From: Armatimonadota bacterium
GTDB lineage: Bacteria; Armatimonadota; Fimbriimonadia; Fimbriimonadales; Fimbriimonadaceae
Direction: 5' to 3'
Length of the DNA: 64,000 bases
NCBI GenBank assembly: GCA_016223145.1
Contig: JACRPN010000014.1
Location: 248,001 to 312,000 of the forward strand
Position 1 is the stretch's first letter; every line of letters begins with the position of its first letter. The notes under the pieces are model-generated. The model saw only the letters and a list, made by a program, of their open reading frames with translations. It was not told where the DNA came from and ran no database searches. The position numbers and the translations under genes are program-made. Below, piece after piece: positions 33,086-48,455 of the stretch.

Positions 33086-33091
33086 CGTAGC

Positions 33092-33673
33092 TCACTTGGG
33101 CGCTTGGCGCTTGAGCTCAATGGCTTTGAGCACGACTTCGGGGGCGACCGGCATACAAAGCTGGTCGATCTCCGCATCGTAAGGATCCTCAACACCCATC
33201 TTCGCGGCGATCTTGTCTACCAGTCGAAGCATCCGTGTGATTTCGTACTCGGCAAGGAGGTTGATTTGAAGGTCCAGGCCCTCGTGCTGGGCGTTCAGCA
33301 TCGCCTCCTTGTTCTGTGAAACCAGCACGAACGTAGAGAGGAAGATCGCCTCGAGCGACACGACCATAGTGAGCAGCCCGAAGGGGTACTGATCGAATGG
33401 CTCGAACGCGGGAATCCATCGAAGGTTGATCGAGATCCAAAGGAAGAACCAAACGAGGTGGAAATAGAAGAACGCCATACTGCCCGTCCAGGCCGTTATG
33501 ACGTCGGCAAACCTCTCTTGACGCGTTCGGCCTGAGAACTCCTTTCGCCGCCGCAGCTCAATGAGGTCGATGTTTCTTTCGATGATGTCGGCGAGGTTGG
33601 TGTTGCTCGCTCTTAACAGTTCCTCGTGAAGTTCCTTCGCGCGCTGTTCAGTAAGTGTTCTGTACTTTGGCAT
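33092..33673 (-). CDS. DUF1003-family membrane protein
   Basis: 193 residues. A charged N-terminal part (ERNIDLIELRRRKEFSGRTR) precedes a two-helix membrane unit. The hallmark DUF1003 pattern is present: RFADVITAWTGSMAFFYFH, WISINLRWIPAFEPFDQYPF and VSLEAIFLSTFVLVSQNKEA. Length is normal for the family. Its function is unknown; the membrane position and small size suggest a channel-like or stress-related role. The ATG start at 33673 lies upstream of the divergent region with no partner. Confidence 0.85.
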   Translation of the reverse strand: MPKYRTLTEQRAKELHEELLRASNTNLADIIERNIDLIELRRRKEFSGRTRQERFADVITAWTGSMAFFYFHLVWFFLWISINLRWIPAFEPFDQYPFGLLTMVVSLEAIFLSTFVLVSQNKEAMLNAQHEGLDLQINLLAEYEITRMLRLVDKIAAKMGVEDPYDAEIDQLCMPVAPEVVLKAIELKRQAPK

Positions 33674-33733
33674 GGGTCCACAATTCGGGCTCCAATCTCG
33701 TCCTGGGCATTTCGATCTCGCCGATGGAAGAGC

Positions 33734-33765
33734 AAAAACGGAGAAGCGGCGTATTTACCCGCCGC
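33734..33765 (-). terminator. Intrinsic terminator after the 33778-34449 gene
   Basis: On the minus strand GGCGGCG...CGCCGC (stem GCGGCG 33746-33751 with CGCCGC 33760-33765) is followed shortly by a run of five T (33734-33738 on the plus strand as A). It lies just after the stop of the neighbouring minus-strand gene. Confidence 0.6.
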
Positions 33766-33777
33766 CTCATCCAGGGG

Positions 33778-34449
33778 TTAGTTCGTTGAGGCCGATGGAA
33801 GGGCCCAGTTGTGGTAGGCGTTTCCAAGCGCGATCTGCATCGCACGCTGCTCTTGCGGCGTGGCAGGGCCCCCACTCACGGCCGTCACCAGCGGTGTCAA
33901 CAGAACGGCCCCTGCGATCTTGTAGCCGTTCGATTTCTCGTCGCTTCGGCCTTTGACCCCGGTCTTCTTGAAGACGACCTTTCCGGAAGCTACGTCAAAG
34001 ACGTAGACGTTTACGGTCGCGGTCGAGATGGTCTTTGGCCCGAGGTTAACCCAAATGCTCCGCGTATGCCATGACACCGAGCCATAGATCACTTTGCTGG
34101 CCTTCAGCGACCTGCCGAAGGTCCTTAACGAGGCGGCTGTAGGCTGTCGCCCAAATCTCGGTGTCGCCAGTTTCTTGGATTTCCACGCCTCGGCAGCCTT
34201 GGAGGCAGAGACCGTTGTGTAGTTAGCCTTCTGCAGAATGCCGTCTGCTGTGGCCTGCACTGAAGCCTTGGCCGTCTTCGTTCCATGCGAGAAGACCCAG
34301 GGATAGGCCACGGCCACGCCTTTGCCTCCGGCCAATCGGCTGGCGGATTTTGCCACCGCGACCCGTTGAGCCATGATCGGGGCCGCAGCCAGGGCCAATG
34401 CCAGACATGCCGTCAGACATGTTGAGTTTCTAAGTGTAAATCGAACCAT
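33778..34449 (-). CDS. Hypothetical exported protein
   Basis: 223 residues with a signal peptide (LTACLALALAAAPIMAQRVA). The mature part is small-residue and Lys/Ala-rich (AVAKSASRLAGGKGVAVAYP, QKANYTTVSASKAAEAWKSK) with the repeated word VxVxxxASGKVVFKKTG near the C-terminus. The arrangement (a short motif with VIYGSVSWHTRSIW, then STATVNVYVFDVASGKVVF) is typical of small envelope proteins that sense or report stress, but I cannot name a family. A terminator follows. Gene and frame are convincing; the role is unknown. Confidence 0.65.
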   Translation of the reverse strand: MVRFTLRNSTCLTACLALALAAAPIMAQRVAVAKSASRLAGGKGVAVAYPWVFSHGTKTAKASVQATADGILQKANYTTVSASKAAEAWKSKKLATPRFGRQPTAASLRTFGRSLKASKVIYGSVSWHTRSIWVNLGPKTISTATVNVYVFDVASGKVVFKKTGVKGRSDEKSNGYKIAGAVLLTPLVTAVSGGPATPQEQRAMQIALGNAYHNWALPSASTN

Positions 34450-34589
34450 CGGTGTTTTCCTAAAGGTCAGAGGGGGTTCTGTGGCCGAGGCGGCTGAAGA
34501 AGGCTCTGACGTATCCCACGTTCAGGGACGTCGTGTTGAGAAAGTCCTCTGCTGGCCCCTTGGACAGCGAGGAATTGGGTTGACGCAGG

Positions 34590-34838
34590 CTACCGATTCA
34601 GAGCGTTGCGCTCAATACACTGGCAAAGGCCAACCAGACGGTTGACTTGATCCTGCTGCTTTTCATCCAATCGAATCCAGTAAGTCGCCACCATGGACTC
34701 GAAACCCAAATTGAACAGCCGCGCCATGCCGGCTGAATGTGCCAGGGAGTCTTTTACCGACAGGTCTGAACAGTGCTCCGACCAGAGGGCCGAGAATTGC
34801 GCTGCAAACGCCGCCGTGTCGAGATGAGTCTGTTTCAT
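34590..34838 (-). CDS. Hypothetical small protein
   Basis: 82 residues. I start at ATG 34838 (MKQTHLDTAAFAAQFSALWS), which has GGAAGG upstream. The farther start at 34919 lies inside a strong hairpin and is unlikely. The protein is helical, without signal or membrane segment, and has Cys residues in GLCQCIERN. Unknown function. Confidence 0.5.
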   Translation of the reverse strand: MKQTHLDTAAFAAQFSALWSEHCSDLSVKDSLAHSAGMARLFNLGFESMVATYWIRLDEKQQDQVNRLVGLCQCIERNALNR

Positions 34839-34901
34839 CGAGTGACACCTTCCTTCAAGTGTTAGGTCGTAATCGCTCTCAAGTTGGCTGCGGGCCGCTG
34901 T

Positions 34902-34937
34902 TGTCTCCCGGCGCCCCATGCAGGGTGCCGGGAGACA
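34902..34937 (-). terminator. Hairpin after the 34948-36228 gene
   Basis: TGTCTCCCGGCGCCC (34902-34916) pairs with GGGTGCCGGGAGACA (34923-34937), 15 bp with one G-T. It lies 10 nt after the stop of the minus-strand gene. No T-run follows. A very similar hairpin with the same ATGC loop follows the paralogous gene at 36402. Confidence 0.5.
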
Positions 34938-34947
34938 GGGGTTTCCG

Positions 34948-36228
34948 TCAGCGGTTTTCGACGGCGATACCTCGGTACGAGAGTTCCCGCGTGAGCCTCA
35001 CACCGAACCTCGTGCCGATCTCAGAAGTCACGTTGCGAGATTTGGCCGGGCTCTTTTGGATTTCGCCGTAGAGATAGCCGAGGGCCCCGCAGATCAGGGA
35101 GTTGGTGATCACGTTGCCCTTGGTCAGCACGGCAAGCAGGGCGCCACCGCCGGCGCCGTAACCCACGTACTTCAGGTTGTCGTTCTTGGCTGCCGACTTG
35201 GCAACGAGGCGGCCGTTATCGTTGGTGACGCTCTTCGAGTCCAGGCCGATGAGCGAGCCATAGATCGCATAGGTTCTGCCGTCAGGCATTCGGAGTCGGT
35301 CGAAGGCGAGTCCGAGCACGCCTGGCGTTTTGCCCGACTTCGCCCGGGCCACATCGACATGGCCTTCGAGCACCGCGCCGCTCGTCATGCCCTGGTAGCC
35401 CATCGAGTCACCGGTATCGACGTTCGCGGTGAAGCGATCGCCCACCGAGGATCCGTTTGAGCTGAGCTGCTGATTGAGCCTAAACGGGATCACCGTTCCG
35501 GCGTCCATGCGCAGAAGGGTGTTTCCCGCCAAAACCGTTTGCCCGGCATAGGGATTCGAGGAGAACCTGTTTGGGAATTGGTTGGTGATTCCCAGGCTCA
35601 TCATGTCCGCCATCTTGAGAATCTGGATACGGACCTGATCGTACTTCCGGACGCTGGTCACGTAATCGCCACTGAGCTCTGCCTGAGCTTCTTCGAATGT
35701 CGTTTCGATGTGCTCTCGCATCATAGAACGCATTTCGATTCGTCCCCAGTTGCTGGGGTTTGATTCGCTGAGGAGGTCGGCGATCTGGTTTCCGTTCTCG
35801 AACCACCGGTCTTTCTGATACGAGACGGTGTCCGAATCGCGCAGCTTCGCGGCTGTGATCACCTCGGCAGCGGTCAGGATGTGCTCCTTGAGCAGGGCGG
35901 ATAGCCTGTTGCCGGCGGTTTCGCCGTAGATCGGCTTGATGGCATTGCCAAGATCGACCTGGTTCTTCAGCAGCCTCGCCTTTGTGGCTGGGCTGTTGGA
36001 TAGGTCATTCGCGGTACTAACGATGAACAGTCGGGTCCAGGTGACGTGGTCTTCCCATAGCTTGCGCATTGCGCCGTGCAGGTTCGGCTCATCCAGATTC
36101 ACTTGGGTTGCGGAGCGGATGCGGCTGCCAGCGTTGTTGGCAAAAGGTCCGATCTGGGCTGTGCTGGGGCCGGCGAGCAGGCTCGCTCCAATCCCAAGCG
36201 TCAGGAGTGCTTTCATGCGGGTGTTCAT
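34948..36228 (-). CDS. Exported two-domain protein, paralogue of 36402-37466
   Basis: 426 residues. The start ATG 36228 (MNTRMKALLTLGIGASLLAG) has GAGGAG upstream and gives a signal peptide. Residues about 45-245 form a helical domain (LWEDHVTWTRLFIVSTANDL, ALLKEHILTAAEVITAAKLR). Residues about 250-426 are a beta-rich domain: RMDAGTVIPFRLNQQLSSNG, then GVLGLAFDRLRMPDGRTYAI and YVGYGAGGGALLAVLTKGN. The beta-rich domain is shared almost unchanged with the next gene. It recalls VirB10/TrbI-like C-terminal domains, but no conjugation genes are near. Function unknown. Confidence 0.65.
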   Translation of the reverse strand: MNTRMKALLTLGIGASLLAGPSTAQIGPFANNAGSRIRSATQVNLDEPNLHGAMRKLWEDHVTWTRLFIVSTANDLSNSPATKARLLKNQVDLGNAIKPIYGETAGNRLSALLKEHILTAAEVITAAKLRDSDTVSYQKDRWFENGNQIADLLSESNPSNWGRIEMRSMMREHIETTFEEAQAELSGDYVTSVRKYDQVRIQILKMADMMSLGITNQFPNRFSSNPYAGQTVLAGNTLLRMDAGTVIPFRLNQQLSSNGSSVGDRFTANVDTGDSMGYQGMTSGAVLEGHVDVARAKSGKTPGVLGLAFDRLRMPDGRTYAIYGSLIGLDSKSVTNDNGRLVAKSAAKNDNLKYVGYGAGGGALLAVLTKGNVITNSLICGALGYLYGEIQKSPAKSRNVTSEIGTRFGVRLTRELSYRGIAVENR

Positions 36229-36350
36229 TTTCTTGCTCCTCAATTCAATGGATCCTGGGCTTCGAGTTCCTAGAAGCCCTCTGGCCGAGGATCTAGCCTG
36301 GGCGGCGCGTGTGCCGACGGAGGCTGGTTCGGGGCGTACTGCCCGAGGGT

Positions 36351-36378
36351 TCTCTCGGGCCCATGCGGGCCCGAGAGA
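36351..36378 (-). terminator. Perfect hairpin after the 36402-37466 gene
   Basis: TCTCTCGGGCCC (36351-36362) and GGGCCCGAGAGA (36367-36378) form a 12-bp perfect stem with an ATGC loop, 24 nt after the stop of the minus-strand gene. No T-run is present. Confidence 0.5.
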
Positions 36379-36401
36379 CACAGGTCACGAGCTGGTTTGG
36401 C

Positions 36402-37466
36402 TCAGTGCTTTTCGGGGATTGTGGCCATGACTCGGAACGAGAGGTCCCGCGTGAGTCTCACGCCGAACTTCGTGCCTGCGGCCGAGGTCACGTTCTGTGA
36501 CTTGGAAGGGTTCTTCTGGATCTCACCGTAGAGGAATCCAAGGGCGGCGCCGATCAGGGAATTGTTGATTACGTTGCCCTTGGTCAGCACGGCAAGCAAA
36601 GCGCCACCGCCGGCTCCATAGCCCACATACTTCAAGTTGTCGTCTCTGGCTCCCGGCTTCGCGGTCAGACGTCCGTTCTCGTTTTCGACGCTCTTAGAGT
36701 CGAGGCCGATCAGAGATCCGTAGATCGGGTAAGTGCGGCCGTCGGCCATACGGATCCTGTCAAAGGCGAGCCCGAGCACACCCGGCATGTCACCGGTCTT
36801 AGCGCGTGCTACCTCGACGTGGCCTTCGAGAGTCGACCCTCTGGCCATGCCTTGGTAGTTCGAAGCGCCATCCGTATCCAAGCTGGCGGTGAACCTGTCT
36901 CCAACGGAGGAACCGTTCGAGCTAAGCTGCTGGTTCAGTCCGAACGGGATCACCGTGCCCGCATCCATGCGCATCACGCTGTAACCGTTGTCGTTGTTGT
37001 TATTGTTCGATCCGGCCGTGAGGATCTCCACGGTGCGGGATTGGGCGATCCAGTCCACGCTTCCACCCAACGCTTCACTGAGGAAGCGCAGCGGAACCAT
37101 CGTGCGGCCCCGATAGATGGTCGCAGGCGAATCCAAATCGACCTGTCGGCCGTTGACCGTGGCCTTGTAGGAGTCGATCGGCAACCGAATGGAGGTGGAA
37201 CCGTGTTGGGCATTGACGCTACGGGCATCGTTGTCCCAGTCGACGGTCGCGTTCATGTGTTCGAACACGCCTCGCACGGGGACCATCACGCGTCCGTTCA
37301 TCATCACAGGCTTAACGTCGGGAAAGTTGACAAGATTGCCATCGACGGTGGCTCGGATATCTTGTGCGCTCGCCACGCTTGCGAGCGAGAGGGCTGCAAA
37401 GGCTAACGCCATGGTCAGTTTCTGCGTCAGCGGCCCTTGATTGTTCAGGAATCTAGCGGTAATCAT
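36402..37466 (-). CDS. Copper-amine-oxidase N-domain protein with the shared C-terminal domain
   Basis: 354 residues with a signal peptide (LTMALAFAALSLASVASAQ). Residues about 35-155 are a typical copper-amine-oxidase N-terminal (stalk) domain with two repeats: VMMNGRVMVPVRGVFEHMNA and ATIYRGRTMVPLRFLSEALG. These domains are common in Gram-positive and Armatimonadota secreted proteins and have no copper role of their own. After a poly-Asn linker come residues about 170-354, the same beta-rich domain as in the gene downstream (RMDAGTVIPFGLNQQLSSNG, YVGYGAGGGALLAVLTKGN). The two genes look like a duplication with different N-termini. Confidence 0.75.
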   Translation of the reverse strand: MITARFLNNQGPLTQKLTMALAFAALSLASVASAQDIRATVDGNLVNFPDVKPVMMNGRVMVPVRGVFEHMNATVDWDNDARSVNAQHGSTSIRLPIDSYKATVNGRQVDLDSPATIYRGRTMVPLRFLSEALGGSVDWIAQSRTVEILTAGSNNNNNDNGYSVMRMDAGTVIPFGLNQQLSSNGSSVGDRFTASLDTDGASNYQGMARGSTLEGHVEVARAKTGDMPGVLGLAFDRIRMADGRTYPIYGSLIGLDSKSVENENGRLTAKPGARDDNLKYVGYGAGGGALLAVLTKGNVINNSLIGAALGFLYGEIQKNPSKSQNVTSAAGTKFGVRLTRDLSFRVMATIPEKH

Positions 37467-37537
37467 CAGATATCAGCCTACTGCTTTGCCGCAGCCACTG
37501 CAAGTCTGCCCTAACAACGTCAGTCATTCTATTGACA

Positions 37538-37569
37538 AAGAAAAGCCCTCCCCCGGAGGCGAGGAGGGC
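37538..37569 (-). terminator. Intrinsic terminator of the PEP-CTERM gene
   Basis: On the minus strand GCCCTCC...GGAGGGC (37545-37551 with 37563-37569) is followed by TTTTCTTT. It lies 50 nt after the stop of the 37619-38311 gene. Confidence 0.7.
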
Positions 37570-37618
37570 GACTACGGCTGGAGTGCGGCGCCGCAGCCTC
37601 TTGGTGTCTTTTGGAGGG

Positions 37619-38311
37619 TTAAGACCTACGTCGACGTCGAGCAATCACGCCCGCCATACCGACTCCGATGGCCAAGAGGCCGGCAGGCTCGGGTACAGCA
37701 GTAATGCTCTCCATCGCAAAGTCGCCACTCGGCAGCGAATCAAACGAGACTTCGATCTGGTCCACATCCGATAGGTCTGTGGTTCCGACCAAGTCGGCAA
37801 GCATGAAGTCTTGCGTAAACGGAACGTACTGGTCGCCAGCGACCAAGTGCGACACGGCAGAAGTGTTTGCTGGTCCGTTGGTGACGAGAGTCACCGTAGT
37901 CCAGAGGTTTCGGTCGTTGCTGAGGAACCTGATCCGAAGACGATCCTGGTTTGAAAGATCGAGATTCAGATTATCCGTCACCAATCCCCCAAAGCCGTCC
38001 GACTGGTATCCGTAGCTCACGGACAGCCTTCCATCAACATTGGTCCCGCTGTTCGAGACAGCGAATCCGCTTCCGATGCTGAGCTCGTATCTCTGGCCAA
38101 ACGGATTTGCCTCGACAGTCATGAGCGTGGTTCGGGATAGCCCAACCATCGTCCCGGTTTGAACGTTTAGGTCGGTTCCCGCGGTCAGGGACTTAAAGTA
38201 GGGTCCAGTGCTGAAGTTGTCAATCAAGACATCAGCCTGAGCTACGCCAACGCAAAGAGCTGCAGCCAAAACAGCAGCCAACTTTTCAGGTTTCAAAGTG
38301 AAAGTATCCAT
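37619..38311 (-). CDS. PEP-CTERM exported protein
   Basis: 230 residues. The start ATG 38311 gives a signal peptide (KLAAVLAAALCVGVAQA). The C-terminus is a PEP-CTERM sorting signal: VPEPAGLLAIGVGMAGVIA, then RRRRRS. Such proteins are cut and anchored or released by an exosortase, which is not in this window. The mature part is beta-rich (NFSTGPYFKSLTAGTDLNVQ, SYGYQSDGFGGLVTDNLNLD), like many surface adhesin-type or matrix proteins with this tail. An intrinsic terminator follows. It is the first of two such proteins here. Confidence 0.85.
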   Translation of the reverse strand: MDTFTLKPEKLAAVLAAALCVGVAQADVLIDNFSTGPYFKSLTAGTDLNVQTGTMVGLSRTTLMTVEANPFGQRYELSIGSGFAVSNSGTNVDGRLSVSYGYQSDGFGGLVTDNLNLDLSNQDRLRIRFLSNDRNLWTTVTLVTNGPANTSAVSHLVAGDQYVPFTQDFMLADLVGTTDLSDVDQIEVSFDSLPSGDFAMESITAVPEPAGLLAIGVGMAGVIARRRRRS

Positions 38312-38558
38312 CGACAGCAACTTACATGGGTAGCCAGAACTGTCACAAGTCGCCCGTTTAGCGTCCTTCAAAGGCTATACACATTTCCGCTTGCTGTTCA
38401 ATTAGGCCTTGGGAGCACCATCGGGGGTGTGACATGGGCTTCGTTGTGCCTTTGTTTCGGACTCCTTACTTACGGCTTCTGCAAGGTTTCTCGGCTCAGC
38501 GACGTCATTGCTCTTGGGTGCTGCAGCACGCTCATGCGGATACCCACATCACGACCAT

Positions 38559-38591
38559 AAAAAAACGGCCCCCCCAAAGGTAGAGGGGCCG
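38559..38591 (-). terminator. Intrinsic terminator on the minus strand with no annotated gene before it
   Basis: CGGCCCC (38566-38572) and GGGGCCG (38585-38591) form a stem with a 12-nt loop. On the minus strand the stem is followed by seven T (A at 38559-38565). A transcript coming from about 38600-38860 must end here. Confidence 0.65.
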
Positions 38592-38634
38592 GCGCGGCCG
38601 AGGGGAGGATTGGCCGCAGTTGATTCAGTTATAT

Positions 38635-38706
38635 TCAGTTGTTGTCAGTGCGACGGCTCGCTTCCACTGAATGTTGCGGCGCCACGTTCTCCGAGAACAC
38701 CAGCAT
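38635..38706 (-). CDS. Candidate 23-residue small protein
   Basis: ATG 38706 is preceded by AGGAAAGGAAG, a strong purine-rich ribosome-binding region. It reads MLVFSENVAPQHSVEASRRT, then DNN and a stop. The intrinsic terminator at 38559-38591 lies 43 nt downstream. It could be a leader peptide, a small protein or part of a small RNA. There is no homology evidence. Confidence 0.3.
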   Translation of the reverse strand: MLVFSENVAPQHSVEASRRTDNN

Positions 38707-38858
38707 GTGCTTCCTTTCCTAGAGAGACGGCAGCCATCGAAAGCAAGGTACATTGGATTGATCCCCCAGTGCCAGTCATAGATTCCATGTCATGGATCCC
38801 CATACAAGAAACAGCGGACTTGTGAAGTGATTTTCAAACCACGTACTCTGGCCGCACT

Positions 38859-39014
38859 ATGGTTTGGACAATCGTTTTGATCCTCGGCGTTCTCTGGCTT
38901 CTGGGAGTGCTTACCTCTACGACAATGGGTGGCCTATTGCACATCCTGCTCATCATTGCTGTTGTGGCGGTGGTGCTGGAGTTGATCCGCGGCCGTCGCT
39001 CATCGAGCCTCTAG
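38859..39014 (+). CDS. lmo0937-family small membrane protein
   Basis: 51 residues starting MVWTIVLILGVLWLLGVLTS and ending LELIRGRRSSSL. It has two hydrophobic helices around the TTMGGLLHILLIIAV turn. This matches the widespread lmo0937 (DUF5670) family of tiny membrane proteins, whose function is unknown and which often appear near stress-response genes. It precedes the first HTH-PAS regulator by 15 nt, so they may be co-transcribed. Confidence 0.8.
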   Translation: MVWTIVLILGVLWLLGVLTSTTMGGLLHILLIIAVVAVVLELIRGRRSSSL

Positions 39015-39029
39015 CGGCTACCCACAACC

Positions 39030-39650
39030 ATGACCGACAAAAACCTCTCCCCGCGCGAAGCCGAGATCGTCGAACTGGCGATCCAGGGCCTTACCAACGA
39101 AGCGATCGCTGAGAATCTCGGCCTCAGCATCGGATCGGTGAACGCCTACTGGCTGCGAATTCGCATGAAAGTAGGTGGGGTCGGGCCTACGGTCTCGGTG
39201 GCACACCTCATCAAAGAGCGCGCGGAAAGGGCGCTCCGTGCGGCAAACGTGGATATGGCCAACCTTAGCGACCACGTTGCGAGAAGCGAGCGCTCGCTCT
39301 TGGAGTTGCGAGCATCGGTCGCGCTTCTGCACCTTGCCATGGAGCAAATCCTCTCGGCCGTGTGGGCCACCGACAAGGAGTTGACGCTCTGCATCATCGC
39401 CAACGGCGCCATGCCAAAAAGCCACCTTGGCGTCGTGTGGGAGGTGGGCAAGACGGTCTACCAGATCTTCAAGACCGACGACCCCAAATCTCCGGCCATC
39501 GCCGCTCACTTGGACGCCTTGAAGGGTATCGAATCCATGATCAGGCTAGAAGGCGAGTTCCACAAGATGGTGCTGCGGGCGCTCCCCCTGCGCGATGAGA
39601 CCCAGATGATCATGGGCTGCATCGGCATCATGAATTACGTCGGAGAGTAG
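39030..39650 (+). CDS. LuxR-type HTH regulator with C-terminal PAS-like sensor, copy 1
   Basis: 206 residues, soluble. The HTH comes first (about 6-60): LSPREAEIVELAIQGLTNEA, then LGLSIGSVNAYWLRIRMKVG. The usual LuxR order has the HTH last. After a helical linker (about 75-110) comes a PAS-like domain (about 110-205): VWATDKELTLCIIANGAMP, EVGKTVYQIFKTDDP and PLRDETQMIMGCIGIMNYV. It probably binds DNA and senses a small ligand or redox signal. A copy about two-thirds identical over the full length lies at 41005-41625. DNA targets are unknown. Confidence 0.8.
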   Translation: MTDKNLSPREAEIVELAIQGLTNEAIAENLGLSIGSVNAYWLRIRMKVGGVGPTVSVAHLIKERAERALRAANVDMANLSDHVARSERSLLELRASVALLHLAMEQILSAVWATDKELTLCIIANGAMPKSHLGVVWEVGKTVYQIFKTDDPKSPAIAAHLDALKGIESMIRLEGEFHKMVLRALPLRDETQMIMGCIGIMNYVGE

Positions 39651-39661
39651 GCCGGGGCAGG

Positions 39662-39704
39662 AGATATCCGTCAACCCCCGCAGGGTTGAGGAATACTAGA
39701 TATC
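39662..39704. repeat. Nested palindrome before the DoxX gene
   Basis: GATATC occurs at 39662-39667 and 39699-39704. Between them CAACCC (39672-39677) pairs with GGGTTG (39683-39688). The inner part recurs as AACCCT-CCG-AGGGTT at 40256-40270, followed by the similar word GAGGGATA. It overlaps the DoxX ribosome-binding region (GAGGA), so it might be an operator or an RNA switch. Confidence 0.4.
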
Positions 39705-40169
39705 GTGCCAACAGACCTCGACCGGTTCGATAAGTGGCTGTCTCATCTGCTTTGGCGGACCGGGGTTCCGTTCCTTCGCATTGGGCTCGGCGTTGTGTTT
39801 GTCTGGTTCGGCTTGCTGAAAGTGCTTGGCATCAGTCCGGCCACGGACTTGGTTGTCAAGACCGTGTATTGGTTCGATCCGGATATTTTCGTGCCGATTC
39901 TGGGTTGGTGGGAAGCGGCTATCGGCGTATGCCTCGCGGTCCCGGTCCTGAATCGCGCGGGTCTACTGCTGCTGACATTGCAGCTGCCTGGGACCTTTCT
40001 TCCTCTGATCTTGCAGCCCGCTCGGTGCTTCAACGGTGCGCTTTGGAATCTGACGCTTGAGGGCCAGTACATCGTGAAGAACTTGGTGATTATCGGCGCC
40101 GCACTGGTTTTGGGGGGCCTTGTTCGTGAGAGAGGAGCCGCCCTATCCGCTGAGTCTGGTCTCGAATGA
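39705..40169 (+). CDS. DoxX-like membrane protein
   Basis: 154 residues. The start is GTG 39705, with GAGGA 12 nt upstream. Four hydrophobic helices are seen: FLRIGLGVVFVWFGLLKVLG, ILGWWEAAIGVCLAVPVLN, AGLLLLTLQLPGTFLPLIL and the last helix (VKNLVIIGAALVLGGLV). The first-helix motif and the tandem of charged loops fit DoxX/DoxD-like proteins, often linked to redox or sulfur chemistry. It lies between the two HTH-PAS paralogues. The role here is unknown. Confidence 0.75.
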   Translation: MPTDLDRFDKWLSHLLWRTGVPFLRIGLGVVFVWFGLLKVLGISPATDLVVKTVYWFDPDIFVPILGWWEAAIGVCLAVPVLNRAGLLLLTLQLPGTFLPLILQPARCFNGALWNLTLEGQYIVKNLVIIGAALVLGGLVRERGAALSAESGLE

Positions 40170-40255
40170 GTATCGCACGAACTTCGATGGCATTCAAGGG
40201 CGGGAGAAGTGATCCCGCGTTGTGAGTTGGACTTGGCTTGAAGCAGGAGACCCTT

Positions 40256-40289
40256 AACCCTCCGAGGGTTGAGGGATAAGACTATCCCT
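40256..40289. repeat. Double hairpin between the DoxX gene and the convergent HTH gene
   Basis: AACCCT-CCG-AGGGTT (40256-40270) is followed by AGGGAT-AAGACT-ATCCCT (40272-40289). It lies about 85 nt past the DoxX stop and 53 nt past the stop of the convergent HTH gene, so it may end both transcripts. Confidence 0.4.
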
Positions 40290-40341
40290 GTGTATTCCCA
40301 CAATCCCAATGGGGTTGAAAGAGAACACGCCCGTTTCGGGG

Positions 40342-40761
40342 CTATTCAAGCTCCCCTTGCCCCGCATGGCCGGGCATAGCGCCGTCGGCCTCACGCATCG
40401 ACTGGTCCGAACTACGCCGAATATCGCCCACGCGTTTGCGCTGGCCGTCCGTGCCGCCCTTCAGAAGCCGGTCGACGGAGGACCGCTCGTCGGCAAGAAG
40501 CCTCTTGAACTCCTGGAGTTGGTGATGGGTCTGGTCTCGATGCGCCTGCGCAACTCGGTCGCCTTCCACGCTCGACCTCTCCAAAAGCCACCTCGCAACG
40601 AGTTCGGTGCGGGTCTTGCCTCCCAGCTTGCCGCGAACACGAAGCCAATAGCCTCGAACCGTCGCGACCGAGATATCAAGTTCGGCGGCGATCCTGTCAT
40701 CGGTATAGCCCTTCGCAGCCATGGAGAGCACCTGGCCCTCTCGATCTGATAAGTTGCTCAT
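40342..40761 (-). CDS. Small LuxR-type HTH protein
   Basis: 139 residues from ATG 40761 (MSNLSDREGQVLSMAAKGYT); a GTG at 40779 is also possible. The N-terminal HTH is clear: LDISVATVRGYWLRVRGKLG. It shares the TVxxYWLRxRxKxGG recognition segment with the HTH-PAS pair. The rest is a charged helical tail (LLERSSVEGDRVAQAHRDQ) with no PAS domain. It lies, in opposite orientation, between the two paralogues. It may be a truncated relative that competes for the same DNA, but that is inference. Confidence 0.7.
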   Translation of the reverse strand: MSNLSDREGQVLSMAAKGYTDDRIAAELDISVATVRGYWLRVRGKLGGKTRTELVARWLLERSSVEGDRVAQAHRDQTHHQLQEFKRLLADERSSVDRLLKGGTDGQRKRVGDIRRSSDQSMREADGAMPGHAGQGELE

Positions 40762-41004
40762 CCCACCAACATTATGCACTCATTTCTGAGGACATGGTAG
40801 AGCGCGCAACATTTCATGTCGAAACTTCTGAGCGCAGACATCAGGGTACAGCCGGGTGTGCCGTCAAGACGACGTACCTACGATTGCTTCCTTGGATTTG
40901 AAGATTGTAAACTCGTCTGCGATTACAGCAACATGTAGACAAGCCCTCTCTCGGCTCGGGCCCTTCGGCAGGGGCCCATCAGGATATCGGAGGAGGCCGA
41001 CAAT

Positions 41005-41625
41005 ATGAGCACGCATGAACTATCGCCGCGTGAATCCCAGATCGTCGAACTCGCGATCCAAGGGCTCACCAACGAGGGAATCGCCCACAAGCTCGATCTG
41101 AGCGTGGGCACAGTGAACACGTATTGGCTTCGCATCCGCATGAAGGTGGGCGGGGTTGGCCGCACGGATTCGGTGGCCAAAGTCATCAAGGACCGTGCAG
41201 ACGTGGCGTTGCGCGCCGCAAACGTCGACCGGGACAATCTCACCGACCACGTAGCGGAAAGGGAGCACACGCTCCTGGAGCTGCGGGCCTCGCACTCGCT
41301 GCTCGAGCTCGCGATGGAGCAGATCAAGTCCGCCTGCTGGGCGACCGACAAGAGCCTGACGCTTTCCATCATCGCGAACGGCGAGATGCCGACCAGCCAC
41401 TGTGGTGTGGTTTGGCAGACAGGCAAGACGGTTTACGAGAAATTCAAATCGACGGACCCCGCCTTTCCGCCCGTCGCCGCGCATTTAGAAGCCTTGAAAG
41501 GCTTGGAAACCACCCTCAGGCTGAAAGGCGAGTTCAGCAAGATGGTATTGCGGGCCATGCCGCTTCTGGACGAGGCCCATGAGATCATGGGCACGATCGG
41601 CATCATGAACTACGTGGAGGAGTGA
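41005..41625 (+). CDS. LuxR-type HTH regulator with C-terminal PAS-like sensor, copy 2
   Basis: 206 residues, the same length and layout as the protein at 39030-39650 and about two-thirds identical by eye: LSPRESQIVELAIQGLTNEG, then LDLSVGTVNTYWLRIRMKVG, then CWATDKSLTLSIIANGEMP and GTIGIMNYVEE. It has GGAGGAGG upstream of ATG 41005. The recognition helix differs at only a few positions, so the two probably bind related sites. The PAS parts differ more, which suggests different signals. It is followed by a DUF5661 gene. Confidence 0.8.
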   Translation: MSTHELSPRESQIVELAIQGLTNEGIAHKLDLSVGTVNTYWLRIRMKVGGVGRTDSVAKVIKDRADVALRAANVDRDNLTDHVAEREHTLLELRASHSLLELAMEQIKSACWATDKSLTLSIIANGEMPTSHCGVVWQTGKTVYEKFKSTDPAFPPVAAHLEALKGLETTLRLKGEFSKMVLRAMPLLDEAHEIMGTIGIMNYVEE

Positions 41626-41716
41626 GACGTGCCGAATGGCCGCGCCGTCCACAGACGTCCGTGGCGCGTGCACTTTGGCCGGAATTGCGCCCGCTAAGGG
41701 CGATAGGAGTCGAATT

Positions 41717-41971
41717 ATGGCAAAGCAAACTTTTACCGATGTGCAGGCTAAGGCAATCGGCGACAAGATAGGCGTGGACTGGTCTGCGACAGATCTCGAA
41801 CAGTTCAAAATGGGTCTGGGTGTGGAGTTAGAGCACGGCAACGCCGACCCCCGGACAAACGTGACGGGTGACGACCCTCTATTGACAGGCAAGATCGCCT
41901 GGGCGCACCTGAACGAGATCCCAGACTACTACACGCGGCTGCTGGACATGGAGCGCCAGGCGAAGTCGTAG
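41717..41971 (+). CDS. DUF5661-family small protein
   Basis: 84 residues. The start ATG 41717 has GGAG upstream. The sequence MAKQTFTDVQAKAIGDKIGV, DLEQFKMGLGVELEHGNAD and NEIPDYYTRLLDMERQA matches the DUF5661 pattern over its full length. The family is of unknown function and common in short accessory genes. A strong hairpin follows. Confidence 0.85.
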   Translation: MAKQTFTDVQAKAIGDKIGVDWSATDLEQFKMGLGVELEHGNADPRTNVTGDDPLLTGKIAWAHLNEIPDYYTRLLDMERQAKS

Positions 41972-41976
41972 GTCAA

Positions 41977-42009
41977 GACTCCCCTGGCCGTGCTACGGCC
42001 AGGGGAGTC
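41977..42009. terminator. Strong hairpin between convergent genes
   Basis: GACTCCCCTGGCCGT (41977-41991) pairs perfectly with ACGGCCAGGGGAGTC (41995-42009), 15 bp with loop GCT. It lies just after the DUF5661 stop and 26 nt from the stop of the convergent gene, so it can end both. No T-run. Confidence 0.6.
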
Positions 42010-42034
42010 GGTTGGGTTCAGTCGAGATCTTGGC

Positions 42035-42415
42035 CTATGCCTTTGCGAAGTAGTAGTACTTCTTCCCGTTCTTGGTGGTCGTGTGGCGTACGTACCGGAC
42101 GCCGTTTCGGGTGAAGCTCTTCCTGCTGAACAGGGTTGCGCGTGCTCGCTTCATCTTGCTTTGGCTCTTGCGGTCGTGCTCATATCGCGATGCCGAATAC
42201 AGCGCTCCCGCAGTGCCCACGAACACCAGGGTTTTGTCACCCTTTAGCAAGCCAAACAGTCCGGCGGCCCCTGACAGGTACCCGAGATCGCGCCAGTCGT
42301 TCTTCGTCTTCTGGCGGTGCTTGATCTGTGCGTCCGTCTGGGCCTGGACGAGCATGGGCGCCCCCACCAGGCCGAATAGAGCAGCCGACACTAGAATTCC
42401 GTTGAATAGCTTCAT
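42035..42415 (-). CDS. Hypothetical exported basic protein
   Basis: 126 residues with a signal peptide (LVSAALFGLVGAPMLVQAQ). A hydrophobic stretch (LSGAAGLFGLLKGDKTLVFV) and a basic, Tyr-rich tail (RYVRHTTTKNGKKYYYFAKA) follow. No known domain. The mix of one possible membrane segment and a cationic tail suggests binding to envelope or nucleic acid, but that is a guess from composition. Confidence 0.55.
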   Translation of the reverse strand: MKLFNGILVSAALFGLVGAPMLVQAQTDAQIKHRQKTKNDWRDLGYLSGAAGLFGLLKGDKTLVFVGTAGALYSASRYEHDRKSQSKMKRARATLFSRKSFTRNGVRYVRHTTTKNGKKYYYFAKA

Positions 42416-42536
42416 TGTTTTCTTCTCCTGAAACCGTGGTTCGCACGAGCCCGAGCCGTAGAAAGCTCAGGAGGCAGCCCAGAAGCACCTGTCTCGGCGC
42501 TTTCGGCGTCGCACGCAGGCACTGAGCGCTCTATGA

Positions 42537-43145
42537 TCACAGCATGCTGACGACTCTTGCGTCGCTCAGCACATGCTCGGGAAGCGACTCTGCCGGCCAT
42601 GCGTTTGCGGGGGCCTCAAGCTTGGGATAGTGCGACCAAGACACGATGTGGGCCGTGTTCCAGATACTGAAACCTCCCTCCAGGCGTCGGCACCACAGGG
42701 ATGGCCCCGCAAACAGGTGGCTCAATGCGCTTCTCTCGCTCATTCCGCTGGCAGCGATGGCTGTGCCTTCGAGAAAGAGCCGTTCGCCGCTGGCAAACTC
42801 CAGCTCGGAAAGGATGACCCCCATGCGGCCCTCGACCTTTGAAATGATCTGCAGCCTTCGGTATTGGAAGGTCTCCTGGCTAATCTGCGTGATGATCGTC
42901 TTGGCACTCCTTTCCCTTTCGAAGAAGAACTCTGGAAGCGGATCGGTCATGATCGTGATGCCGATGAGCGCCTGGCCCGGAAAGGCGGTCACATCGTCTG
43001 CGCTATCCAGGATCAAGCTCGATCTTGCGAATATCTGGCCATCCAGGTCGTTGCAGATGGCCGCAACAAGCTCTGGCTTGTCCTGATAGAACATATGCTT
43101 ACGACCCGTGATGAGGTGGAGCTGAATTCCTGTAGGTTGAAACAT
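42537..43145 (-). CDS. Hypothetical protein, last of a three-gene set
   Basis: 202 residues from ATG 43145 (MFQPTGIQLHLITGRKHMFY); the frame is open to 43193 without clear support. It is soluble, with no signal or membrane segment. Readable stretches include LVAAICNDLDGQIFARSSLI and GITIMTDPLPEFFFERERSA. It lies 24 nt after the gene at 43169-43567. I do not recognise the family. Its base composition looks poorer in G+C than the backbone genes. Confidence 0.5.
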   Translation of the reverse strand: MFQPTGIQLHLITGRKHMFYQDKPELVAAICNDLDGQIFARSSLILDSADDVTAFPGQALIGITIMTDPLPEFFFERERSAKTIITQISQETFQYRRLQIISKVEGRMGVILSELEFASGERLFLEGTAIAASGMSERSALSHLFAGPSLWCRRLEGGFSIWNTAHIVSWSHYPKLEAPANAWPAESLPEHVLSDARVVSML

Positions 43146-43168
43146 CTTTGTATAAGCCTTGATGGCCC

Positions 43169-43567
43169 TTAGAACCCAACAGTGGCCAGGCACTCCTGGT
43201 CGGAAACGCTGGGGTCTCGAGTTGCGAAGAGCATGTGGTCGAAGCCTTCGGCGGCAGGCATGTAGAGAGTTCTAATACAACAATGCGCCTCTTCGGCGAT
43301 CTTCAGGTAGAGGAACATGTTTGCAAAGGAGAAGGGCACGCCGGGAACGTGCCACTCGCGATCAAGAAGGATGGCATTTTGATCTGGAGAGGCCATCATG
43401 AAGTGGATAGCGCTTTCTGCGACCTGGCGCCCTTCGTTGGGCCCGCGGCTATGATGAGGAGCCACATAGCTGGACCCGAACGCTGATGCTACGTAATCAG
43501 ACTCCTCGCCGCCGAATCGAACGCCGTCATTGTTGAGAAGTTCGTGCTTTGTTTGGTTTAGATCCAC
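43169..43567 (-). CDS. Hypothetical protein, middle of a three-gene set
   Basis: 132 residues from GTG 43567, with GGAG upstream. The start overlaps the stop of the 43-residue gene by 10 nt. It is soluble, with Gly-rich and His-rich parts (SSYVAPHHSRGPNEGRQVAE, FMMASPDQNAILLDREW, EEAHCCIRTLYMPAAEGFDH). Unknown family. The overlap argues that these three genes are made together. Confidence 0.5.
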   Translation of the reverse strand: MDLNQTKHELLNNDGVRFGGEESDYVASAFGSSYVAPHHSRGPNEGRQVAESAIHFMMASPDQNAILLDREWHVPGVPFSFANMFLYLKIAEEAHCCIRTLYMPAAEGFDHMLFATRDPSVSDQECLATVGF

Positions 43568-43689
43568 TTTGGTTGCTCCATGATCTCGCGCTTGTAGCGG
43601 GGACCCTCGGCAAAGAACTTGTTCTGTAGCGGCATCTTCTTCTTTGCAGCGGCCTTCTTCCGGTTCGACAGCACTTGATCCAAACCCAT
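43558..43689 (-). CDS. Hypothetical 43-residue basic protein, first of a three-gene set
   Basis: The start ATG 43689 gives MGLDQVLSNRKKAAAKKKMP and ends YKREIMEQPKWI. It is strongly basic at the centre, with no signal peptide. Its stop lies inside the next gene. The small size and the KKAAAKKK core could make it a nucleic-acid or membrane-surface binder. It may instead be a leader peptide for the next gene. Confidence 0.4.
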   Translation of the reverse strand: MGLDQVLSNRKKAAAKKKMPLQNKFFAEGPRYKREIMEQPKWI

Positions 43690-43931
43690 TGTTGACCAAT
43701 GCCTCGAGTGTCTACCAGTCCGGAAATGCGCTGTCAGTAAAGTGGGGGACACGCGCTTGTCCAATGAATTGTAGACAGAGATTCCGTGACTATCTTCAGC
43801 CGGGAGAAGTGGATATTGTATGGCAGGGCCAACGTAGCTAAGAGCCGAGTTGAACAGTTCAACTCTCTTGAGCTCTCGCAATTGGCCTTGATAGTCAGAG
43901 CCCAGCCTCTAGCCCATAAGTGAAGTGGAAA

Positions 43932-44504
43932 ATGAATCAATCTGCAATTAATCAGGACATTTTGATTGACCGGGCACGGAATGGAGACCAGGATGCGCTA
44001 GACATTCTCTTAAGGGATCATAGACAGCTTGCCTTCAAGTATGCTCTGCACTGGACGCACGATCTTGACGATGCAGCGGACATCGTCTCGGAAACGTTGA
44101 TCCGCGTTCAAAGGGGAATCACAAGCTACAGCGGCCAAGGGTCTTTCTCGACATGGCTGCACCGTATCACCTCCAACTGCTTCCTTACCATGAAACGGAA
44201 GGAGAGGATGAGAAAAGAGACAAGCCTAAACGTGCTCAAGGTGGAAGACGACGGTGAGTCAGAACTCCGGATCGAGGATAAGGGCCTTTCCCCGTTCGAC
44301 GTGGCCGCCACGAATGACGAGCTTCAAACCCTCCTAAGGGCATTCCGGCGATTGCCGCGCCACCAGGAGGAGCTGCTTCGCACCCATTTCTTAGAGATGC
44401 GGTCCTATAGGGAGACGGCACGGCTTCTGGGAATACCCATTGGGACAGTAAAGAGCAGCATCTTTCGAGCGCGCTGCAAGCTAGCCAGACTCACTCTTCA
44501 CTGA
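43932..44504 (+). CDS. ECF-type sigma factor, orphan
   Basis: 190 residues from ATG 43932; the GTG at 43920 is an alternative. Region 2 is clear: LAFKYALHWTHDLDDAADIV and SETLIRVQRGITSYSGQGSF, then STWLHRITSNCF. Region 4 ends the protein: LPRHQEELLRTHFLEMRSYR and GIPIGTVKSSIFRARCKLAR. ECF sigma factors direct RNA polymerase to stress or envelope promoters and normally have an anti-sigma next to them. None is seen here. The 3' end overlaps the convergent adaptor gene by 14 nt. Confidence 0.85.
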   Translation: MNQSAINQDILIDRARNGDQDALDILLRDHRQLAFKYALHWTHDLDDAADIVSETLIRVQRGITSYSGQGSFSTWLHRITSNCFLTMKRKERMRKETSLNVLKVEDDGESELRIEDKGLSPFDVAATNDELQTLLRAFRRLPRHQEELLRTHFLEMRSYRETARLLGIPIGTVKSSIFRARCKLARLTLH

Positions 44505-45645
44505 TCACTCTTACAACCGCGCCCTCAGCGAGCCCGGACTTTATTTCCACGAGCGCGCCATCGGTCATGCCGGTTTGGACCTCCGTTACCACCCACGTTT
44601 CCCCGCTTTGAACGTTTACGGTGGACTTCCCATCCTTCGTGGTCAAGGCTCCCACGGGCACGACGAGGACTCCTTTGAGGGAGCCTGTTCTGACGCCGAT
44701 GCGCTTGACCGACAAAACGGGCTGGGCGATCGCGCGCGGAGCGAGGAACCGGATCGATGCCAGATATCCGGGCCCCGTCTTTCCCTCGACTGGCGGTACG
44801 ACAGTGACGTCGAGGACGACACCGTCGAAGGGATCCGAATTGGGACCACTCATGGCAATGATCACGCGAGAGTTCTTGGCGACGAGGTCCTTGAGCTCGG
44901 CCGGCACCAAGCCTTGCACGCGTACAACGTCGAAGTTGATGACCGTTGCCAGAAGCTGCTTACCTGTTACGGCCATTCCGGGCTGAGCTTCGAGCCACAC
45001 AACGGTCCCTGAAATGGGTGCGCGAACGACTCCCTTAGCGGCGTCGGCTCTCGCAGAAACGAGGGTTTCAGAGGCTCGGCGCAAGGCGTCCTTCGAAGGT
45101 TGCAGCGTGTCGCGAAGCTCTTGCTGAACCTGTTTGAGCACAGCTTGGGCATCCATTCTAACTTGGGCAGCGTATTCGATGTCGGCTTGGCCGCCATTGG
45201 CAACGGTGTCGCGGGCTGCCTTTTCTGATGCTTGCGCCTCGGCCAATGCGCGCTGAGCCTCGTGAAGCGGATCTGAACTTGAGCCCTTCTGCGCCGAGTA
45301 GTCGGCGCGCGCGGCATCGACATTCGACTTGGCGGCAGTCGTAGCGGCGTCTGCGCCAGGGACTTCGAGCCTGATAATGGGATCGCCCCTGCGAACAAGC
45401 TTTCCAATGCCTGTAACGAGGGAGGCAACCTTCGTGTCGTAAGGAGCGTAGGCCGTCGCGCGAGCGCCCTCAGGAACAAGGAGCCTGCCATCAAAGAAGC
45501 TGTAGCCGACGAGGTCCTGGCGTTTCACAACGTCTGTTGTAACTACTGGCTTCTTCCCGATCGTGTTGGGGCTCACCGCGGTCGGTGAAGCGCATCCAGC
45601 GATCAGAAGGGCTAGAACGAGGTAGGGTATCTGTGAAATAGTCAT
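44491..45645 (-). CDS. Lipoprotein efflux/secretion adaptor (HlyD/RND-MFP type)
   Basis: 384 residues. A lipobox (LVLALLIAGCAS) makes it a lipoprotein. The layout is that of periplasmic adaptors: a first lipoyl half (ATAYAPYDTKVASLVTGIGK), a helical hairpin with many Ala/Gln (ALAEAQASEKAARDTVANGG), a second lipoyl half (KGVVRAPISGTVVWLEAQPG), a barrel and a C-terminal beta domain. Such adaptors bridge an inner-membrane pump and an outer-membrane channel. No pump or channel gene is adjacent, so it must use a partner elsewhere or have lost it. It is convergent with the sigma gene, overlapping by 14 nt. Confidence 0.85.
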   Translation of the reverse strand: MTISQIPYLVLALLIAGCASPTAVSPNTIGKKPVVTTDVVKRQDLVGYSFFDGRLLVPEGARATAYAPYDTKVASLVTGIGKLVRRGDPIIRLEVPGADAATTAAKSNVDAARADYSAQKGSSSDPLHEAQRALAEAQASEKAARDTVANGGQADIEYAAQVRMDAQAVLKQVQQELRDTLQPSKDALRRASETLVSARADAAKGVVRAPISGTVVWLEAQPGMAVTGKQLLATVINFDVVRVQGLVPAELKDLVAKNSRVIIAMSGPNSDPFDGVVLDVTVVPPVEGKTGPGYLASIRFLAPRAIAQPVLSVKRIGVRTGSLKGVLVVPVGALTTKDGKSTVNVQSGETWVVTEVQTGMTDGALVEIKSGLAEGAVVRVISEE

Positions 45646-45749
45646 TTGATGTGTCCGTCCTTACTGGAATCGTTTACAGACGCGAAGCTACTGAAGGCAA
45701 TCTGCCCTTTCTTCTAGTGGCGACGCTCCGGACTCCGGGGTGCGAACAG

Positions 45750-46049
45750 TTATCGTGCCTCCGCGCAGATATCGTCTACCACTTTTGCGACGTACTCGAA
45801 AGCCGGCTCATCAGGAACGAGGTTCATTCGCCCAATCGCCAGGATGGCCTGCACACGATTGCCCACTCCGAGTTTTTGGTAGGCGTTTCCGAGATGGAAG
45901 TCGACGGTTCGCTTTGATAGATATAGCGCGCTGGCTACTTCTTTGCTGGAGCTCCCGTTGGCCAGGAGGGTGAGGATCTCAACCTCACGGCTCGAGAGGC
46001 TCGTTCTTTCGTCGATTCCAGATAATTCTTCGCCAGTTGCAGGTGCCAT
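45750..46049 (-). CDS. LuxR-family HTH regulator
   Basis: 99 residues from ATG 46049, with AGGGAGAG upstream; the frame continues upstream to 46103 without support. Nearly all of it is a canonical LuxR HTH: LSSREVEILTLLANGSSSKE and LYLSKRTVDFHLGNAYQKLG, then RVQAILAIGRMNLV. No sensor domain is attached, so it is a stand-alone DNA-binding protein or a truncated one. It is 104 nt upstream of the adaptor gene on the same strand and may control it. Confidence 0.8.
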   Translation of the reverse strand: MAPATGEELSGIDERTSLSSREVEILTLLANGSSSKEVASALYLSKRTVDFHLGNAYQKLGVGNRVQAILAIGRMNLVPDEPAFEYVAKVVDDICAEAR

Positions 46050-46398
46050 GGTTACTACTCTCCCTGATTGGCGTGCTTTCGTTCGTCGGGCATCTCTGAA
46101 CATAGGGCACGCAACTTACTGCGGTTCATAGAACCGCCCGGCCAGCGGTATCAGAGCGACCGGGCGTTCATCCGTCACAAGATGAGGCATCCCTTCGCGG
46201 CGCATCTCGATCTATCCCATAGCGAATGAGCCAAGACGCCCCTCCCTGCTTCGCAGAGTTCACCGGCCAACCGCTCCACAACATTCATTCTTCACGTAGG
46301 GGCACCTGCCGGGCAAGTCGTGAATTTTCTGTCAGTGCTTCTATAGACAAGGAAGAGCGGACTTGTGCGCTCAGGGTGTGACTAGGGACACTGAGTGC
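46050..46398. other. Gap between divergent genes
   Basis: About 350 bp separate the LuxR gene (minus) from the cytochrome gene (plus). It should hold the promoters of both. I saw no convincing gene, hairpin or repeat, and no clear promoter pair that I would defend. Confidence 0.4.
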
Positions 46399-46737
46399 AT
46401 GCCTGTCTACAGAATTCTGCTCTTTGCCTTCGCCGTTGGCTTTTGGGCCGTGGCGCTGGCTGTGCCTGCGTTTATCAAGGACTTTCGCAGCACATACGGG
46501 ATTAAGCCCGAAAGCAGGATCGCCAAGGCTGGGTGTGGATTCTGCCATACGACAAAGGCGGCGAAGCTCAATCCCTATGGCGCCGACCTGAAGAAAGCCA
46601 TGACGCAGGAGAACACCAAGGTCCTTACCGGCAGCGTTCTCAAGAAGATCGAAGGTCTGGACTCCGACAAGGACGGGGCCAAAAACAGCGTCGAAATCTC
46701 GAGCGACACGCTCCCCGGAGACCCGAAGAGCAAGTAG
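46399..46737 (+). CDS. Monoheme c-type cytochrome-like exported protein with a calcium-type loop
   Basis: 112 residues from ATG 46399 (MPVYRILLFAFAVGFWAVAL), which gives a signal or anchor. One heme motif, CGFCH, lies in KAGCGFCHTTKAAKLNPYG. A possible Met ligand follows in LKKAMTQ. Near the end LDSDKDGAKNSVEISSDTLP has the DxDxDG spacing of EF-hand or thrombospondin-3 loops and could bind calcium. This heme-plus-DxDxDG layout occurs in exported proteins of other soil bacteria. Twenty nt separate it from the collagen-like gene, so the two are probably one unit. Confidence 0.65.
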   Translation: MPVYRILLFAFAVGFWAVALAVPAFIKDFRSTYGIKPESRIAKAGCGFCHTTKAAKLNPYGADLKKAMTQENTKVLTGSVLKKIEGLDSDKDGAKNSVEISSDTLPGDPKSK

Positions 46738-46757
46738 CTCACCTAAAGGAGCAAACA

Positions 46758-47096
46758 ATGTCTTACACAGAAGATCGAGCCGACTCACGTTCGCTCACAT
46801 CCGTCGTTCTCGTCTTGCTGGGCGTCGCCGTGATCGCCGCCGTCCTCTATTTTGCCTGGTGGTCGCCATCGCGCTCGAACCCGGACACGATAATCGTGAC
46901 ACCTCCTACACAAGGCGCGGCCGGTGCACCCGGAGCCGCCGGCGCAACTGGTGCTCCCGGAGCCGCTGGCGCCCAAGGAGCGCAAGGCGCTGCCGGTGCC
47001 GCAGGAGCAGCGGGCGCAGCCGGATCGACTGGGCAGACAACGGGCGGCGGAACAACTGGTGGCAACACAACGGGAGGCAGCTCGGGCGGAGGATAG
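46758..47096 (+). CDS. Membrane-anchored collagen-like protein
   Basis: 112 residues. The start ATG 46758 has AAAGGAG upstream. A short cytoplasmic start, one membrane helix (TSVVLVLLGVAVIAAVLYFA) and a spacer are followed by about 15 Gly-X-Y triplets: GAAGAPGAAGATGAPGAAGA, then GAQGAAGAAGAAGAAGSTG. The end is a Gly/Thr-rich tail (GGGTTGGNTTGGSSGGG). Gly-X-Y runs form collagen triple helices in bacterial surface proteins. The number of triplets is low, so the stalk is short. No sortase or PEP-CTERM signal is seen. Confidence 0.75.
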   Translation: MSYTEDRADSRSLTSVVLVLLGVAVIAAVLYFAWWSPSRSNPDTIIVTPPTQGAAGAPGAAGATGAPGAAGAQGAQGAAGAAGAAGAAGSTGQTTGGGTTGGNTTGGSSGGG

Positions 47097-47255
47097 CAGA
47101 CCTCCTCATCTAGTGCTTCACAAGACCAATGCACCGAGTGGCGCCAAGCTGATACGCCCCACTCAACGACAAACAAAGGTTTGTCCGGAATCGGATTGGC
47201 TTTCCGATCGGAAACGGTTCAGCGAATGTCTTCGCCAGACCCAGGAAAACAGGAA

Positions 47256-48304: not shown

Positions 48305-48349
48305 CTCTCAATCAGCGGGTCGAAGGTTCGAGTCCTTCGCGGTCCACCA
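48305..48349 (+). repeat. Partial copy of the tRNA-Lys 3' end (candidate attachment site)
   Basis: CTCTCAATCAGCGGGTCGAA and the following T-arm, acceptor strand and CCA match tRNA-Lys 32010-32054 at 43 of 45 positions. The 5' half of the tRNA is missing, and the anticodon stem cannot form with the bases in front. I therefore read it as an attL/attR-type direct repeat and not as a working tRNA. Confidence 0.7.
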
Positions 48350-48455
48350 GGGTTTTCCCCGAACGGTTGCTCCTTTGTGCCGAGGGAGTCTCGCGCGGGG
48401 TTGCGGCAGGAAGTCCTTATCAAGAAAGCGATCGGCCCGCCCATTTTCACTCGGC

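Follow-up and report, generated by a model that had tools for sequence, protein, structure and literature searches.

HTH-first, PAS-last proteins of Fimbriimonadaceae: a candidate sister branch of FG214

FG214 and other regulators combining HTH and PAS domains

The vast majority of proteins that combine a LuxR-type HTH with a PAS domain have the PAS domain first (PMC13060918). The only characterised reversed GerE HTH-PAS protein that we found in the literature is FG214 from Fimbriimonas ginsengisoli, a heme one-component switch of the HTH-PAS type with an N-terminal LuxR-type HTH (PMC13060918, bioRxiv 2026; PDB 10JX). Its PAS domain holds heme b through His156 and His175, with Met172 as an alternative; upon reduction or with imidazole the linker helix is released, so that the protein can dimerise and bind inverted repeats with a GGGGCGGGG-like half-site (PMC13060918).

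The window analysed here (the whole stretch of 64,000 nt from a bacterium of the Fimbriimonadaceae) encodes two proteins of this layout, HP1 and HP2, together with a shorter HTH protein, H3. The features of the region are as follows.

31979-32054, plus strand: tRNA-Lys(CTT), left end of the putative island
34948-36228, minus strand: C1a, paralogous to C1b in the C-terminal part, without the Cu_amine_oxidN1 domain
36402-37466, minus strand: C1b, Cu_amine_oxidN1 domain and glycine-rich C-terminal part
38859-39014, plus strand: small membrane protein of the lmo0937 family (NF033488), 15 nt before HP1
39030-39650, plus strand: HP1, HTH(GerE)-linker-PAS protein, 206 aa
39665-39695: imperfect dyad TATCCGTCAACCC-n5-GGGTTGAGGAATA, with 11 of 13 positions paired across a 5-nt centre, in the HP1/DoxX-like intergenic region
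39705-40169, plus strand: membrane protein with a weak DoxX/MauE match, a neighbour at this locus only
40250-40276: related second dyad ACCCTTAACCCTC-c-GAGGGTTGAGGGA, 3' of the DoxX-like gene
40342-40779, minus strand: H3, GerE HTH and helical tail, no PAS, 145 aa
41005-41625, plus strand: HP2, 206 aa, with the HTH(GerE)-linker-PAS layout of HP1 (70% identity)
41720-41971, plus strand: DUF5661 protein, 3' of HP2
48305-48355, plus strand: 51-nt repeat (92%) of the tRNA-Lys 3' half up to and including CCA, marking the right border of the putative island

FG214 and the window proteins share the order of domains (GerE HTH first, a helical linker, PAS last), the length of about 206-214 aa and the bacterial family, but differ in the PAS subtype. 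In genome G128 FG214 was found as a 214-residue frame (L076/L101; L101:1501-2142, minus strand), with H156, H159, M172 and H175 exactly at the published numbers. In 28 FG214-type proteins of Fimbriimonadaceae H156, M172 and H175 are invariant, while H159 varies, which lends independent support to the heme-ligand assignment of the preprint. The corresponding motif H-x15-M-x2-H is present in all 28 FG214-type proteins and in none of the 29 window-type ones, and the assignment of the latter to the FG214 type was rejected, as the ligand triad is missing in each of them. Only the HTH domains align (43% identity over 65 aa), and profile alignment of the two types of PAS domains yielded no useful match. 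In the tree of HTH domains the window-type clade (support 0.93) joins the HTHs of H3 type (0.996), apart from most HTHs of FG214 type.

Judging by these comparisons, the HP1/HP2 family is a previously undescribed sister branch of the FG214 kind with another PAS sensor. Since the layout and the HTH stock are the same, while the PAS domain is of a different subtype and lacks the FG214 ligands, the signal likely differs from that of FG214. The initial annotation had pointed out that the order of domains in HP1 and HP2 is the reverse of the usual one, which is right, and the order is rare according to PMC13060918; as a novelty it is not unprecedented, since FG214 has the same one. Moreover, proteins with this order, FG214-like or other, are common in Fimbriimonadaceae, and F. 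ginsengisoli encodes no fewer than six HTH-first proteins besides FG214, several of which end in a PAS-like part (as judged by eye). The window family indicates that the layout goes beyond one heme protein, with several branches that share the HTH and differ in the PAS sensor; combining the same HTH with another sensor, it offers a comparison with FG214 for PAS control exerted from behind the HTH.

Other described regulators are more distant. EL222 and other LuxR-type regulators with PAS or LOV domains also have a GerE HTH and a PAS domain, and the effector-release logic proposed below is similar, but their PAS domain is N-terminal and the HTH is C-terminal, the reverse of HP1 and HP2, for which there is no flavin evidence. 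The MltR/MmyB-like family does have the HTH first and a PAS-like ligand domain last, but the former is of the XRE type, the latter binds a fatty acid, and the family is found mainly in actinomycetes (PMC3406030); HP1 and HP2 gave no XRE match in the Pfam scan, their HTH being GerE. NarL/FixJ response regulators share the HTH superfamily but carry an N-terminal receiver and a C-terminal HTH, and no receiver domain (PF00072) was matched in HP1 or HP2 in the same scan.

Domains of HP1 and HP2 and the PAS subtype

The description of two 206-residue proteins with an N-terminal LuxR-type HTH and a C-terminal PAS-like part was borne out by the open reading frames, Pfam and AlphaFold2. The GerE domain (PF00196) matches residues 5-48 of HP1, 5-57 of HP2 and 9-61 of H3, always above the Pfam cut-off. 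HP1 and HP2 had been taken to share about two-thirds of their residues; they are indeed related, the measured identity being slightly higher, 145/206 (70.4%), with 47/65 identical positions in the HTH and 69/100 in the PAS part. Their codons differ at 44, 31 and 97 first, second and third positions, respectively, and this excess at the third position indicates that both genes are real and under purifying selection. A third full-length paralog, 68-72% identical to HP1 and HP2, lies outside the window (G000:C15:27427-28044), and the nearest relative of HP2 (75% identity) is found in genome G035.

By sequence profile all PAS matches of the C-terminal part are sub-threshold, the best E-value being 0.003. 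The structure was predicted with AlphaFold2 from an alignment of the 29 family members. In the full-length model (pLDDT 74) the HTH helices span residues 8-71, followed by a long helix (78-106) and the PAS topology (109-203); for the PAS part modelled alone pLDDT is 79 and pTM 0.73. Among the solved structures matching the model, PAS and PAS-like sensor domains predominate (VIA Z 8-12 across about 90-118 residues), while the best Foldseek E-value is modest (2e-4) and the loops of the pocket are of low confidence (means of 10-residue blocks 47-66). Hence the PAS fold of the C-terminal domain, as modelled, is well supported, in agreement with the initial annotation, and the ligand is not.

Positions W112, H160 (28 of 29 proteins) and P186 of the PAS domain are conserved in the family. 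Its nearest sequence kin outside the family are proteins in another family of the same order; one of them was scanned and has the PAS_4, HisKA, HATPase_c and receiver domains of a hybrid histidine kinase. H160 belongs to the F-helix segment H..AL.G, which is kept in these relatives, and by this sequence likeness the window-type PAS domain is a subtype occurring in histidine kinases too.

These observations bear on the possibility that the window proteins are heme sensors after all, like FG214 but with other ligands, e.g. H160 in the F helix together with M180 or H132. Such residues are frequent in the family (H160 in 28, M180 in 21 and H132 in 25 of 29 proteins), the heme PAS domains of Aer2 and DosP are among the fold matches, and the lineage and the HTH are common with FG214. 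However, the FG214 triad is absent from all 29 proteins, the two PAS types have no useful profile match, and His in the position of H160 is also found in PAS domains of hybrid histidine kinases from another family, so that it marks the PAS subtype rather than heme. We consider heme sensing by these proteins improbable, though not negligibly so.

Neighbouring genes, H3 and the proposed regulation

The gene immediately upstream of HP1 encodes a protein of the lmo0937 family (NF033488, 50.7 bits with the cut-off of 30) and is probably transcribed together with HP1. Genes of this family are usually single-copy in genomes bearing HTH-PAS family members, and in 8 of the 14 genomes having both the two are within 7 kb of each other, compared to 0.12 expected under random placement, a null that ignores shared ancestry, although all eight genomes represent different genera. 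The lmo0937 gene is located directly 5' of the HTH-PAS gene in the window and in L031. In Listeria lmo0937 strongly depends on SigB (54-fold, PMC2813243; see also PMC7690807), which makes a stress context for the HTH-PAS family reasonable, and the linkage hints at possible targets of such switches, in a phylum whose regulatory genetics is little developed.

A C1b-type gene is divergent from lmo0937 near an HTH-PAS gene in seven genomes (G000, G013, G014, G028, G035, G036, G157) and is found near an HTH-PAS gene with no lmo0937 nearby in two others (G147, G133); the closest homologs of C1b adjoin HTH-PAS genes in several genera. In the window C1a and C1b form a tandem, and their common C-terminal part has 79% nucleotide identity over 300 nt. 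Stress-type genes by annotation (YflT/DUF1269, DUF892) recur at other loci of the family, as do two-component genes; as response regulators and histidine kinases are the neighbours at some loci, the targets need not be lmo0937. The DoxX-like gene was rejected as a conserved module member: its label is weak (19.2 bits with the cut-off of 23.6, and about the same score for MauE), DoxX occurs in 4 of 24 genomes, and it adjoins a family member in the window only. Thus, the idea of a small self-contained module holds for the co-location with lmo0937 and for the divergent HTH-only partner described below, and fails for DoxX. Absent from the initial annotation were the third copy outside the window, FG214 as a precedent, the link to C1b and the probable tRNA-Lys island. 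A link to defence systems was also discarded, the matches being at the level of the HTH only.

The shorter HTH protein, noted initially between HP1 and HP2 on the opposite strand, is exactly there, and the helix common to the three proteins, YWLRIRMKVGG, reappears in H3 as YWLRVRGKLGG. The true start of H3 is likely ATG at 40761 (MSNLSDREG). Orthologs of H3 are found in G035 (51% identity over 134 aa, divergent from a family member) and G033 (42%, unlinked), and shorter relatives divergent from an HTH-PAS gene in G139 and G144, so that such a divergent HTH-only gene is seen in four genomes only (G000, G035, G139, G144). The sequence CAGAAATGAGTGCAT at 40774-40788 (minus strand) is identical before the H3 ortholog of another genus (L027 in G035), while the rest of the stretch between H3 and HP2 is poorly conserved between these genomes; CAGAAATGAGTGCAT is a candidate promoter or operator of H3. 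A PAS-less HTH from the same stock facing an HTH-PAS gene is the best hint of the cross-regulation suggested initially, which may work by competition or mixed dimers.

No other operator common to the upstream regions of HTH-PAS genes was seen by eye, CAGAAATGAGTGCAT being confined to H3 in two genera. The two dyads flanking the DoxX-like gene are purine-rich and may act as operators or as RNA hairpins; the lack of a T run sets them apart from classical terminators. They contain the AACCC palindromes mentioned in the initial annotation (39673-39687 and 40256-40270; two in the window against an expectation of 0.06). AACCC-N5-GGGTT was rejected as a regulon signal across the genome, since its 9 occurrences show no enrichment over the 11 of the reversed-pattern control. 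After the DUF5661 gene there is a perfect 15-bp inverted repeat with a 3-nt loop (41977-42009), terminator-like but also with no T run.

The reading that we favour, and consider fairly probable, is that HP1 and HP2 are cytoplasmic HTH-PAS one-component regulators of a branch distinct from FG214, with probable targets in their own neighbourhood. The regulation, effector release, targets and role of H3 we infer as follows. The N-terminal GerE HTH would dimerise on DNA, being connected by a long helix (about residues 53-106) to the C-terminal PAS domain, which would sense a small signal or the state of a cofactor. On the model of FG214, the resting protein may have its linker helix packed on the PAS sheet, with the dimer surfaces hidden, and the signal would release the helix, allowing the dimer to form on an inverted repeat. 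The likely targets are the co-directional lmo0937 gene, the divergent Cu_amine_oxidN1 gene and divergent H3, whose product could compete for the HP sites or form mixed dimers.

A broader and more tentative version, on the doubtful side in our view, is that Fimbriimonadaceae possess modular HTH-first switches with one GerE stock and several PAS domains, and that the window class, non-heme or differently liganded, controls a portable general-stress cassette (lmo0937 and the Cu_amine_oxidN1/glycine-rich protein), tuned by the divergent PAS-less HTH.

Alternatively, the PAS domain might relay a partner, the proteins docking on a two-component system encoded next door with no sensing of small molecules. 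Genes of receivers or hybrid kinases adjoin an HTH-PAS gene at six loci (L028, L033, L036, L064, L066, L067; a raw count), and in L067 and L066 the HTH-PAS start lies behind or inside a receiver gene. On the other hand, there is no such gene near the window copies, and HP1 and HP2 themselves lack a receiver domain, leaving this explanation a small chance of being right.

A probable tRNA-Lys island and the range of the family

The whole cluster, with its HTH-PAS regulators, is within a segment of about 16.3 kb (31979-48355) that extends from tRNA-Lys to a partial copy of this tRNA, the repeat of its 3' half (45 of 51 nt fall within the tRNA; alignment score 84, compared to at most 31 in shuffles). 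The GC content is 57.6% inside the segment and 61.4% and 62.2% outside, and in 4-kb windows it is at most 58.9% inside and at least 59.0% outside, with no overlap. The repeat of the tRNA 3' end and the GC contrast are what insertion of an element at a tRNA gene typically leaves, and the segment is probably a genomic island. No integrase was recognised among those reading frames that were scanned. The HP, H3 and DoxX-like genes are absent from the two congeners sampled, and in the first 1.6 Mb of one of them (G001) the empty site was not found, the flanking genes there being not syntenic.

That HP1, HP2 and H3 are neutral passengers of this horizontally acquired low-GC island, as the two congeners without the family might suggest, with no joint function, is very improbable given the bias of substitutions to the third codon position, the intact members in a dozen genera and the recurrent linkage to lmo0937 and C1.

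With the membership threshold of E below 1e-20, full or partial members of the family are found in 22 of 291 Armatimonadota genomes from 12 genera, all of them Fimbriimonadales, and several copies per genome are frequent (six matches in G035). The HTH-PAS pair thus recurs in other genomes, but not jointly with DoxX. Plasmid, phage and viral collections contained no family member at the sensitivity used, and short exact peptide patterns, which distant homologs could escape, gave only Fimbriimonadaceae matches when applied to the genome_contigs collection, other phyla included.

Several loci have features of their own. The HTH-PAS gene at L037:9448-10289 (minus strand) is split into two frames, probably by a frameshift or decay, and adjoins a tRNA-Ser gene, while the copy in L070 is about 190 nt from tRNA-Arg. 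In L028 (1758-6631, minus strand) the HTH-PAS gene is the first in an apparent operon that continues with genes of a hybrid histidine kinase, of a receiver and of another kinase; of two further HTH-PAS copies located around it, one is truncated at the end of the contig. L067:2540-4108 and L066:948-2472, from two genomes, share one arrangement, in which a receiver gene immediately precedes the HTH-PAS gene and is divergent from genes of an HTH-only coiled-coil protein and a FecR/DUF6600 protein. Finally, the probable island also carries genes for an ECF sigma factor, an HlyD-type adaptor, PEP-CTERM and collagen-like proteins, and another HTH-only GerE protein, 99 aa long (45750-46049, minus strand, 72.8 bits), missed by the genome searches with HP1 and H3.
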